From Acidobacteriaceae bacterium (GTDB lineage Bacteria > Acidobacteriota > Terriglobia > Terriglobales > Acidobacteriaceae): a stretch of DNA of 64,000 bases. Of this stretch, positions 2,609 to 9,190 are shown piece after piece. The DNA is taken from the NCBI GenBank assembly GCA_030041045.1, contig JASHOQ010000057.1, positions 1 through 64,000 of the forward strand. The letters are read 5' to 3'. The number at the start of each line of letters is the position of its first letter. The stretch's first letter is position 1. The translations under genes were made by a program, and so were the position numbers. The notes beneath the pieces are model-generated. The model searched no databases and was not told the DNA's origin. It saw only the letters and a list, made by a program, of their open reading frames with translations.

Positions 2609-3292
2609 TTAGAGCTGGTCGAAAATGTCGCGGAAGTCCCAGGCGCCGGCGGTCTTCTGGCGAGTGAGCCACTCGGCTCCGCGCACGGCGCCCAGCGCAA
2701 AGCCGCGGCGCGAGAATGCGTCATGGCGAATCTCGAGGATGTCCACTGCGCTCTTCGCGGTCACGACGTGCTCGCCCTTGGCGTCGCCGACGCGGTGCGA
2801 GGTGACGGGGATCTCCGCGCCGGGATGGGCGGCGGCGAGAATTTCCTTGAGCGTGATAGCGGTGCCCGAGGGCGCATCGACCTTGGTGACGTGGTGCGTT
2901 TCCGTGACGGAAAAATCGTAGTCCTCGAGTCGGGCCAGTTCCGCGGCGAGACGGAAGAGCTTCTGCACGCCGACGGAAAAATTGCTGGCGTAGAGTAGTG
3001 CGCCTCCGCGCTTGAGGGCGAGAGCTTTCATGTCGGGGAGCTTGGCGTACCAGCCGGTAGTGCCCACTACGATGCGGCAGCCGAGAGCCAGCACGGCGCG
3101 CATATTTTCAACAGCTGCTTCAGGTGCAGTGAAATCGACGATCACATCGACCCCGGCGAGATTGGGCGCGGTGAGCGCAGCGGCGTGTTCGTTCTCCAGG
3201 ATGTCGAGCGCACGCACGCTGTGGCCGCGCTCGCGCGCCACTTCGGCCACGAGGCTTCCGGTCTTTCCCTTGCCTAGCACGAGGATGAGCAT
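2609..3292 (-). CDS. dapB: 4-hydroxy-tetrahydrodipicolinate reductase
   Basis: MLILVLGKGKTGSLVAEVARERGH...VDVIVDFTAPEAAVENM...VVGTTGW...SNFSVGV...ETHHVTKVDAPSGTA; DapB signature. Confidence 0.95.
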   Translation of the reverse strand: MLILVLGKGKTGSLVAEVARERGHSVRALDILENEHAAALTAPNLAGVDVIVDFTAPEAAVENMRAVLALGCRIVVGTTGWYAKLPDMKALALKRGGALLYASNFSVGVQKLFRLAAELARLEDYDFSVTETHHVTKVDAPSGTAITLKEILAAAHPGAEIPVTSHRVGDAKGEHVVTAKSAVDILEIRHDAFSRRGFALGAVRGAEWLTRQKTAGAWDFRDIFDQL

Positions 3293-3294
3293 TT

Positions 3295-3360
3295 CAGTGG
3301 ACAGTGGACAGTGAACGGTGGACAGTGGACAGTGGACAGTGGTCAGTGGTCAGTGGTCAG
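3295..3360. repeat. Tandem heptamer array A (ACAGTGG / TCAGTGG)
   Basis: CAGTGG ACAGTGG ACAGTGA ACGGTGG ACAGTGG ACAGTGG ACAGTGG TCAGTGG TCAGTGG TCAG, about 9.4 units of 7 bp. Confidence 0.95.
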
Positions 3361-3722
3361 CGTTTGGTGCTCTTGAGCGATTCCAGGATTGAAAATAGCA
3401 TTTTCCCTACTTCATGCGACAGCCCTTCTGCCTCTTTGAGCAATTCCGGTGTACCGAACTGAAGCCGGCGGGCGAGGTCGATCTGCGTCTGCAGTTCGGA
3501 GTTTGAACCTCGCGCAATCCCCAGAAAATGGCGAAACTCACTGGTGTTGTTTCTGCCTTGCCCCTCGGCTATGTTACACGGAATCGAAATGGAGGAGCGC
3601 CTCATTTGGCTGGTTAGCCCGTACAGCTCTTCGGATGGAAATGCGCGCGTAAAGCGATACACCAGGACAGCCAAATCCATCGAACGCTGCCAGACGACCA
3701 AATCTCGAAAGGATTGCACCAT
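3357..3722 (-). CDS. Four-helix-bundle protein (S23 / 23S rRNA intervening-sequence protein family)
   Basis: MVQSFRDLVVWQRSMDLAVLVYRFTRAFPSEELYGLTSQMRRSSISIPCNIAEGQGRNNTSEFRHFLGIARGSNSELQTQIDLARR; canonical family motifs FRDLxVWQ, GLTSQMRRSSxSIPxNIAEG and GSxxELxTQ. Confidence 0.95.
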   Translation of the reverse strand: MVQSFRDLVVWQRSMDLAVLVYRFTRAFPSEELYGLTSQMRRSSISIPCNIAEGQGRNNTSEFRHFLGIARGSNSELQTQIDLARRLQFGTPELLKEAEGLSHEVGKMLFSILESLKSTKR

Positions 3723-3840
3723 TTCAGGCCCGGCACCTTGCGGTGAAAATCAGTTGTGCACCCGGAAGCGGGGAGATTAGCAGCCTAAAGCCTCAGCATG
3801 GTCAGTACGAATCGAAAACAAACGGGTTCCCTCGCACTCG

Positions 3841-3875
3841 CTGTCCACTGTTCACTGTCCACTGTTCACTGTCTG
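3841..3875. repeat. Tandem heptamer array B (CTGTCCA / CTGTTCA), inverted relative to array A
   Basis: CTGTCCA CTGTTCA CTGTCCA CTGTTCA CTGTCtg; reverse complement of the array A unit. Confidence 0.93.
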
Positions 3876-5279
3876 CGGCTTGCGGGCTTCGACATCGAAG
3901 ACGGCGGGATCGGGGTTTTGGAAAAAGGCCGCGTGGAGCGAGCGGATGGCCTCGTCGGCGTCGTCTTCCTCAATCATGAAGCTCATGTTGATCTCGCTGG
4001 CGCCCTGCGAGATCATGCGCACGTTGATGTGACGAATGGCGCTGAAGACCTGCGCGGCGATGCCGCTCTGGCCGCGGATGTCTTCGCCCACCATGCACAC
4101 CAGCGCCTTTCTGCCCTCGTATTTTACGTCGGCCAGCTTGCTCAAATCGGCGGCAATCTCAGGAAGGCTCGCGTTCGAGTCGACGCTGAGTGAAACCGAG
4201 ACTTCGCTGGTGGAGACCATATCCACCGGGCACTTATGCTTGTCGAAGATGGCGAACATCTGGCTCATGTAGCCGTGCGTCATGAGCATGCGGCTGGCCA
4301 CGATGTCGATGATGCTCAGCTTCTTCTTGACGGCGATGGACTTGAAGGGGCTTTTGCAGTGCGGCGCGAGCGAGATGATGCGCGTGCCCTCGCATTTGGC
4401 ATTGCGGCTGTTGAGCACGGCGACGGGAATGTTCTTTTTGACGGCGGGCAGAATGGTGGCCGGATGCAGGACCTTGGCGCCGAAGTAGGCGAGCTCGGCT
4501 GCTTCTTCAAAGCTGATGACGCGCACGCGCAACGCGTCCGGGCAGACGCGGGGATCGGCGGTCATGATGCCGTCCACGTCGGTCCAGATTTCGATGGTTT
4601 CTGCCGAGAGTGCGCCGCCGATGAGCGCGCCGGTAAAGTCGGATCCGCCGCGGCCGAGCGTGGTGGTGACGCCCGCCTCATTGGCAGCGATGAAGCCGCC
4701 CATGACGGGAATCTTGTGCTCGTGCAAAAGGGGAAGCAGCTTTTCCTGGGCGCGCTTTTCCGTGACGGCGTCGAGCGGAGCGGCTTTTTGAAATTCGGAA
4801 TCGGTGACGACGATCTGGCGCGCGTCGACGTGCACCGCGTCGAGGCCGCGCTCACGGAAGGCGGCGGTGACGATGCGGCTGGAAAGGCGCTCACCGTAGC
4901 TGACGATGAGATCGGCAATGCGCGGCGTGAGCTCGAGCAGGACAGCGAGGCCGCGCAGAACCTCATCGAGAGAGTCGAAGCGCTGATCGATGAGATCGAC
5001 CGTCGATGCGCATTCGTTGGGTGATTGAATAAGCTCGGCGGCCACGTCGCGATGGCGCCCGCGCAGGCGCGAGCTGATGGCCAAAGCCCCGGTACGGTCG
5101 CCCTGCGCCGCGGCGCCGGCCGCGCGAAGCAACTGATCCGTCACCTTGGCCATGGCGCTGACCACGATCACCGGGCATTTCCCCTGCGCCACGCGGCCCT
5201 TCACGATGGCCGCGGTGCGGGCGATGGCGGCCGCGTCTTCGACCGAGGTTCCGCCAAATTTCATCACGACCAGGTTCAT
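3852..5279 (-). CDS. lysC: Aspartate kinase
   Basis: MNLVVMKFGGTSVEDAAAIART...FIAANEAGVTTTLGRGGSDFTGALIGGAL...EIWTDVDGIMTADPR...; C-terminal ACT domains. Confidence 0.95.
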   Translation of the reverse strand: MNLVVMKFGGTSVEDAAAIARTAAIVKGRVAQGKCPVIVVSAMAKVTDQLLRAAGAAAQGDRTGALAISSRLRGRHRDVAAELIQSPNECASTVDLIDQRFDSLDEVLRGLAVLLELTPRIADLIVSYGERLSSRIVTAAFRERGLDAVHVDARQIVVTDSEFQKAAPLDAVTEKRAQEKLLPLLHEHKIPVMGGFIAANEAGVTTTLGRGGSDFTGALIGGALSAETIEIWTDVDGIMTADPRVCPDALRVRVISFEEAAELAYFGAKVLHPATILPAVKKNIPVAVLNSRNAKCEGTRIISLAPHCKSPFKSIAVKKKLSIIDIVASRMLMTHGYMSQMFAIFDKHKCPVDMVSTSEVSVSLSVDSNASLPEIAADLSKLADVKYEGRKALVCMVGEDIRGQSGIAAQVFSAIRHINVRMISQGASEINMSFMIEEDDADEAIRSLHAAFFQNPDPAVFDVEARKPQTVNSGQ

Positions 5280-5365
5280 GGGTGCATTCCCGTTTTCACT
5301 CGAGCGGGCGCGGCGTGGGCCGGTGGACATGGGGAGGACTCCGAGAGGTATAGCCGAAGCATGGT

Positions 5366-6502: not shown

Positions 6503-6770
6503 GGTCCTGAACACTCCAGTGTACAGGAGGACGAGGTTGGCGCGGGCGCGGCAGCAAAGGATGAGCCTGAAGGTAAACGGCTTTGCGCAGAAAGTTAGAA
6601 GCTTCTCATGTCCGGACAGGCGCGCTGAGCTCCCGGGGAGCGCACACTCGAAATCGGGAGCCGAAAGGAGATTGCAGCGCGGCCCCCGCGGAGACTGGCT
6701 GCAAGCGCGGGAGCCCCGGCCCAACCGATGAGGGAGCCGGGGCGTGCGCAGGAGTGGAAGCGCGTCAGGC

Positions 6771-6889
6771 TACAGCGGTTTCACAGTTGCTGTATCCCGA
6801 AGCCGCAGATGCTGAGTGGCCTTTTCACCAAGAAAAAGCCACCTTCCGCAACTGTGAAATATGGCTACATGTACTGTGGAACCGCTCTA
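6771..6889. repeat. Compound palindromic element (nested inverted repeats)
   Basis: Outer AGCGGTTTCACAGT (6774-6787) / ACTGTGGAACCGCT (6873-6886), 13/14 complementary; TTTCACAGTTGC (6779-6790) / GCAACTGTGAAA (6848-6859), 12/12; inner hairpin GTGGCCTTTT (6816-6825) / AAAAAGCCAC (6833-6842), 9/10. Confidence 0.8.
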
Positions 6890-7702
6890 GGGAACAAAGA
6901 CGCGGTAGGCGTAGCCGTTGCGAATCACAAGGACTGATCGGCGGGGCGCGTATACCACCGCCGGCGGCGCGGCAAAATAATAGACCGAAGGCGGCGGAGC
7001 CGGAGCGGGCGCATAGGCCACGACCGGAGGCGGCGGGGCCGGAGCGGGCGCGTAATCCATGGCCGTGGGGCTCGGAGCCGGTGGCTGTTGCTCGGGCGCG
7101 GGCGGCTCATAGGCGCTGGGACGCCGGTAGAGTCCGTCTGGAGTCTGCTCGAGCGGCTCGCCCATGGGCACTTCCATATCGTCCATCACCTTGAGCGTGA
7201 GCCGGGTTTCTTCCTTGAGGGTGGGGCGCGGCCCGCGGCGCGGCAGGTTGATCAAGTCGATGGGCCAGAGGATGGGGATCATCCACTCCACAGTGTCGCG
7301 CACGGCGTGGCCTTTGCCGAGGATGCGCCCGTACTCATCCACGTTATAACCGGGCACGCCCACCACGCGCGCGTCCACGGGGATTACGGTATCGGGCTCG
7401 ATGACCATGCGGTCGAACTTGAGTTCCATCCAACCCTTGCCGACGAAATGACCGGGATCCTTGTAATCTTCGAAGCGGCCCACGAGGTAGCTGTCATAGG
7501 GCAGAGTGGAGCGCCCGTAGCGCTCCGAGTAGCCGAGGCGGCAGAGCACGGGATCGCCGATGGCGGTGGTTTTGGAGTTGAGCTTGGGCTCCGACATGGT
7601 GCAACTGATCAGAGACCCGGCGGGAATGATCTGTTCACCGGCGTAGACAGACACCGGCGCGGCGAACAGGATAGCGCAGAGAGCCACTGGAACGCTCTTC
7701 AT
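6887..7702 (-). CDS. Secreted proline-rich hypothetical protein
   Basis: Signal peptide MKSVPVALCAILFAAPVSVYAGEQ; C-terminal YAPAPAPPPPVV repeats. Confidence 0.75.
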   Translation of the reverse strand: MKSVPVALCAILFAAPVSVYAGEQIIPAGSLISCTMSEPKLNSKTTAIGDPVLCRLGYSERYGRSTLPYDSYLVGRFEDYKDPGHFVGKGWMELKFDRMVIEPDTVIPVDARVVGVPGYNVDEYGRILGKGHAVRDTVEWMIPILWPIDLINLPRRGPRPTLKEETRLTLKVMDDMEVPMGEPLEQTPDGLYRRPSAYEPPAPEQQPPAPSPTAMDYAPAPAPPPPVVAYAPAPAPPPSVYYFAAPPAVVYAPRRSVLVIRNGYAYRVFVP

Positions 7703-9069: not shown

Positions 9070-9071
9070 TG

Positions 9072-9106
9072 CTTCTAGCTCCTAGCTTCTAGCTCCCAGC
9101 TAAAAG
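9072..9106. repeat. Tandem heptamer array C (CTTCTAG/CTCCTAG), 5 units
   Basis: CTTCTAG CTCCTAG CTTCTAG CTCCCAG CTAAAAG directly upstream of the icd-like start codon (9067-9069). Confidence 0.9.
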
Positions 9107-9155
9107 CGACTCTTGGCGGTCCGTTAATGATTACGCTTCAATCCAACAGCACAAA

Positions 9156-9183
9156 CTAAAAGCTAGCAACTAAGAGCTAGAAG
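9156..9183. repeat. Tandem heptamer array D, inverted relative to array C, 4 units
   Basis: CTAAAAG CTAGCAA CTAAGAG CTAGAAG; reverse complement CTTCTAG CTCTTAG TTGCTAG CTTTTAG matches array C units. Confidence 0.88.
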
Positions 9184-9190
9184 CTGTTTC

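Follow-up and report, generated by a model that had tools for sequence, protein, structure and literature searches.

S23 genes framed by inverted heptad arrays: a putative insertion element related to 23S rRNA intervening sequences

S23 proteins ('four helix bundle proteins') are widespread in bacteria, yet to our knowledge they have no known function, nor do we know of an agreed explanation for the heptamer repeats that are present in many bacteria. The occurrence of S23 in rRNA intervening sequences, the heptamer repeats and the S23-like protein Avd are each known, separately from one another. Intervening sequences of the 23S rRNA gene that code for S23 are found in Coxiella burnetii, and also in Leptospira and Brucella. 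In C. burnetii the S23 gene lies between complementary ends that make up a 28-bp stem, the 5' arm contains tandem GACAGAT heptamers in variable copy number, and the whole sequence, located in helix 45 of the rRNA, is excised by RNase III (PMC4990558). Avd, a component of diversity-generating retroelements, resembles S23 both in its fold and in its five-chain assembly (Foldseek matches to 4dwl and 8ub7, TM about 0.75-0.79). Heptamers with the consensus GGGNATC have been described in Xanthomonas and Nostoc, where arrays of about four units are paired in inverted orientation in the gaps of aligned genes, covering a stop codon or closely preceding a start (Rehm 2015, PMC4692102); they have been read as G-quadruplexes, and the main text of that paper does not mention S23. 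TAACTGA heptamers of Beggiatoaceae, Cyanobacteria and Bacteroidetes are described, in the abstract and passages of MacGregor 2015 (PMC4679880), as intergenic, located near gene ends and patchy across phyla, and these parts of the paper draw no link to S23; unlike the arrays reported here, they are mostly direct and precede start codons.

The locus studied here is located in the window, i.e. the whole analysed stretch of 64,000 nucleotides of an Acidobacteriaceae genome, where the minus strand carries, in this order, lysC, array B, S23, array A and dapB (Table 1). As in the 23S rRNA intervening sequences, its ends are complementary and could form a stem that encloses an S23 gene; in contrast to them, it lies between the protein genes lysC and dapB and not inside an rRNA gene. 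Tandem Repeats Finder (TRF) identified 4.7 copies of CTGTCCA in array B (score 52) and 9.4 copies of CAGTGGA in array A (score 97); the two arrays are mutual reverse complements, with arms of 33 nt and a complementarity score of 28, and they pair with each other in the predicted RNA fold (z=-4.1). TRF, the sequence and Pfam all agree with the original prediction that reverse-complementary arrays flank a single S23 gene, whose TGA stop codon (3357-3359) had been correctly placed within the last unit of array A. Two further contacts with the host genes had been overlooked: array B includes the stop codon of lysC (3852-3854), and array A reaches to 2 bases from the start of dapB. There is no Shine-Dalgarno sequence between array A and the ATG of dapB (3290-3300), and relatives have TTCCAAAGGAAC or similar; judged by its sequence, the window's dapB has lost this signal, array A now abutting the start codon.

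Table 1. Positions of the features in the window.
Feature	Position	Strand	Remarks
dapB	2609..3292	-	downstream host gene; TIGR00036, E=6e-41
Array A	3295..3360	-	3' arm; 9 CT-type heptads (CCACTGNC)
S23 gene	3357..3722	-	121 aa; Q55 and F63
Array B	3841..3873	-	5' arm in the direction of transcription, GACAGTGAACAGTGGACAGTGAACAGTGGACAG; about 5 heptads that begin with AG (AGTGNAC)
lysC (aspartate kinase)	3852..5330	-	upstream host gene; NCBIfam PRK09084, E=9e-157, and gene call; extended by an ORF open to 5411
S23-less paired arrays, AGCT family	9071..9190	-	another operon gap; TRF; stem score 16

The window protein is a member of the 23S_rRNA_IVP family (PF05635), which it matches with E=5.6e-38 and 129.9 bits, well over the curated cut-off of 33.8, and it also matches TIGR02436. 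Its AlphaFold model (pLDDT 94.9) exhibits the four-helix fold, superimposed by Foldseek on 2gsc with a TM of 0.91, and puts residues 55 and 63 on the two sides of one turn, at the end of helix 2 and the beginning of helix 3, respectively. Both solved S23 structures, 2gsc and 2rld, comprise five chains, and an assembly of five four-helix bundles is named in the title of the 2gsc paper (as cited in PMC10053308). The GC content of the gene is 0.53, compared to 0.63 and 0.65 in its neighbours. The S23 proteins of this genome, three in number, share only 47-59% identity among themselves or with the window copy; the second is encoded between grpE and dnaJ.

A search with the single motif CAGTGNN initially suggested that the arrays are independent of S23, because this motif (three consecutive units) is dispersed genome-wide, with 294 hits as against none for the reversed control pattern; it was also absent from the surroundings of the other two S23 genes of this genome, and its counts were patchy over the phylum. 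This conclusion was overturned by motif-free detection of 7-bp periodicity, which revealed that other S23 genes have arrays as well, each with its own motif. An arm test that scores complementarity between the two flanks of a gene, regardless of motif, gave at least 10 for 30 of the 31 S23 genes of the genus vs 17 of 152 short control genes taken from this genome, where such hairpins are abundant in general. In a wider set of 80 S23 loci from many phyla, found by profile, 63 of the 78 testable loci reached at least 12, compared to 58 of 1655 intervals drawn at random from these loci (3.5%), while 15 of the 78 have no detectable arms. Held-out loci behaved alike, with arms in 81/88 from other Acidobacteriota and 19/21 from viral contigs, and arms were also present at 7/8 S23 loci on plasmids. 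Two of the plasmid loci, both cyanobacterial (L387 and L390), have an armed S23 gene inside a CRISPR-Cas operon, between cas6 and cas4, the operon of L390 including cas1d of type I-D. The proposal that the arrays are the ends of a unit is supported by inverted heptad arms around S23 in almost every lineage sampled.

The arms obey a common strand grammar. On the S23-sense strand, AG recurs in the 5' arm and CT in the 3' arm, with units of 7 nt at most loci and of 8 or 9 at some, while the unit sequence differs from one S23 locus to another; GACAGAT of Coxiella, put in the AG register, becomes AGATGAC, which is the unit of locus L126. The median arm is 31 nt long, i.e. 4.35 units. Both neighbours are co-directional with S23 at 28/30 loci of the genus and 44/53 of the wider set, against a background of 41%. 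The loci with periods of 8 or 9 (L106, L113, L115, L117, L277, L287 and L288) have related S23 proteins that share the unit length, hence the protein subtype may set the unit spacing as well.

The third base of the units covaries with the protein. Out of all columns of the alignment, 63 and 55 are its best predictors in the complete data, and these two residues also lead outside Acidobacteriota alone. Tyr at position 63 is accompanied by G at base 3, and Phe by T or C (Fisher p=5e-14 in the training set and p=1.5e-6 in held-out loci). Among pairs of S23 proteins at least 60% identical, base 3 is shared in 16% if residue 63 differs vs 76% if residues 55 and 63 agree; for instance, L270 and L278 (EGQARRTTGDY) have AGGGACG units, as against AGTGATG in L254 (EGQARRTTGDF). 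With both residues masked during tree construction, there were seven F/Y contrasts that were supported and independent; they scored 5.8 in the same direction and 0.1 in the opposite one (median p=0.03), and these contrasts gave no support for residue 55 as an independent determinant. A residue-55 rule, fixed before the new loci were fetched, was right for 21/27 held-out Acidobacteriota (permutation p=1e-4) and for 6/9 in a small viral-contig set, where the result is not significant. The window protein (Q55, F63) is predicted to go with AGT-type units and the observed AGTGGAC fits. The Xanthomonas S23 XCC0516 (structure 2gsc) has Tyr at the position of residue 63, in agreement with G-type units. 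The suggestion that the arrays are recognition sites gains support from the covariation with residue 63, which holds at held-out loci and on independent branches.

We consider it probable (roughly 0.7) that the S23 element is an insertion element related to the 23S rRNA intervening sequences, and that its S23 protein reads its own heptad ends. In such an element a single S23 gene is framed by two inverted arrays whose heptads begin with AG, and the whole would have been inserted in the sense orientation between operon genes of the same direction, past the upstream stop codon. S23 would most likely sit on the arrays as a pentamer, with about one unit per subunit, and the site at the turn between helices 2 and 3 (residue 63, perhaps 55) would read base 3 of the unit. 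The arrays would be the termini of the element as well as the sites that its own protein recognises, and the paired arrays without S23 that are present in many operon gaps would be non-autonomous or decayed forms of the element. The data show the architecture, the strand grammar, the covariation, the genomic position and the empty sites. We infer the binding of S23 to the arrays, the match of pentamer to repeat and the mobility, as well as the level, DNA or RNA, at which the recognition would take place.

The strongest alternative places the whole process in RNA. TRAP is known to bind GAG/UAG repeats in RNA. In a similar manner, the element could be an mRNA intervening sequence, whose arms pair and are cut by RNase III to release the S23 RNA, with S23 binding the RNA heptads and controlling its own expression or processing. 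This is quite conceivable, even if we would not bet on it: S23 loci are co-directional within operons, between a stop codon and a Shine-Dalgarno sequence, the arms pair in the predicted fold of the window locus, and there is the Coxiella rRNA precedent for an S23 gene, arm heptamers and excision by RNase III in one element (PMC4990558). However, selection for pairing in the sense RNA would be expected to produce an excess of G-U over A-C mismatches in the arms, and none is seen (179 vs 177), hence selection on RNA pairing is unsupported, which leaves room for recognition of DNA.

The reading of S23 as an insertion element is also supported by the relatives, in which the gene is missing from both junctions that were compared, lysC-dapB (29/29) and grpE-dnaJ (29/29). 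The former comparison had been proposed as a check of insertion as a unit, and it came out in favour of that claim; 'mobile' means here that the element was presumably inserted and implies no mechanism of movement. Many relatives have a short gap between grpE and dnaJ, and that of the closest relative, 26 bp without a hairpin, resembles the right flank, which puts the element directly behind the grpE stop codon. The boundary is approximate, the right end has a TGAGTT(A/C) repeat that may be there by chance, and no clear target-site duplication was found at grpE-dnaJ. The lysC-dapB gap of some relatives (L036, L042, L045 and L058) harbours another gene, by eye resembling a DUF3237 protein, so this gap takes up genes repeatedly.

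An alternative that we regard as unlikely is that S23, itself devoid of arrays, landed in the loop of pre-existing host intercistronic hairpins, for which it has a preference. Hairpins of heptamers with other motifs and without S23 are indeed present in relatives at both lysC-dapB and grpE-dnaJ, but a passive site does not explain why the unit type follows residue 63 locus by locus, and grpE-dnaJ of the closest relative is a short gap with no hairpin. Least probable by far is that these are ordinary heptanucleotide repeats, made by replication slippage or maintained as G-quadruplexes, with S23 nearby by chance: among the long simple repeats of many bacteria, the heptamer class is the most frequent (Mrazek 2007, as cited in PMC4679880), and GGGNATC arrays were read as quadruplexes (Rehm 2015, PMC4692102), but the link to S23 goes far beyond the controls, there are no runs of three G in the AGTG and AGCT families, so that quadruplexes fail as a general explanation, and slippage accounts neither for the inverted pairs nor for the covariation with the protein. 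This account is refuted as a complete explanation, and it may explain the lengthening of arrays.

The insertion element that we favour differs from a classical insertion sequence or MITE in the absence of a transposase gene between its ends, where only S23 was found. No recent copies within the genome were detected, and the loops of S23-less forms are unlike between loci. Recent MITE-type copying was rejected since no match was seen between the loops of different loci, the only exceptions being two dispersed repeats that are unrelated. One of these, MITE-like and about 120 bp long, lies at about 6770-6890 of the window and has about 12 near-full copies of 90-98% identity in the 0.8 Mb sampled. 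The other, also of about 120 bp (GCATTTTCTGAGTGACTGT..., L075, at about 80486-80607 of contig C35 of this genome), has a dozen or so full or partial copies of 88-98% identity in the same sample. A local diversity-generating retroelement was likewise rejected: Avd requires a reverse transcriptase and template/variable repeats, none of which adjoins the S23 gene of the window, and the single RVT_1 match of the genome is on contig C22, not beside S23.

A search of the open literature found no work that assigns heptamer ends to free-standing S23 genes or that describes the covariation of residue and base, and an earlier description elsewhere is possible. Should S23 prove to read the repeats on either side of its own gene, the puzzles of S23 function and of the heptamers would become one, with a concrete link between residue and base; free-standing S23 genes and rRNA intervening sequences would form one class of elements, and thousands of orphan genes would obtain a simple annotation rule. 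A broader proposal, for which we see slightly less than an even chance, is that S23 proteins are ring-shaped readers of tandem heptads, with one AG-headed unit per subunit and residue 63 selecting the third base, and that a class of insertion elements found throughout bacteria is defined by them. Relatives of these elements without S23 would then make up many of the heptamer repeats that lack an explanation in bacterial genomes, among them the arrays of the ribosomal-protein operons.

Heptanucleotide simple sequence repeats, tandem above chance and dispersed over the genome, are abundant here: in a sample of about 0.8 Mb, in which genes were called by a simple custom program that overlooks some short ones, S23 included, there are 100 period-7 arrays with a score of at least 10 in 802 kb vs 2-6 for periods 5, 10, 11 and 13. 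Many operon gaps contain paired arrays without S23, the first arm at a stop codon and the second before the next start, as in the second array pair of the window, whose arms lie near 9071-9101 and 9154-9180; the GGGNATC repeats of Xanthomonas and Nostoc resemble this form. The possibility that heptamers are distributed independently of S23, which would count against the original prediction, holds only by half: arrays also occur in operon gaps without S23, but S23 loci are strongly linked to arrays. The median density of AG heptads is 52 per Mb in genomes with S23 vs 12 in those without (p=6e-4), and genomes with no detected S23 may hold many arrays (G035 and G464). Genomes whose known S23 belongs to the AGT type have a higher fraction of AGT arrays (p=0.003, with one S23 per genome). 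In the ribosomal-protein operons (L102 and L103, on contigs C4 and C7 of this genome), from tuf-rpsJ through rpoA, most intercistronic gaps contain a heptamer hairpin of about 100 nt, the heptamers belonging to several motif families; Rfam gave no match in the window or in the ribosomal contigs. Between rplB and rpsS, a hairpin of about 120 bp is inserted in seven members of the genus, and in about eleven the gap measures 10-21 bp. The loops of these hairpins are alike between species, as compared by eye, and their arms differ (AGCT or CAGTG), so the arms appear to turn over in place.
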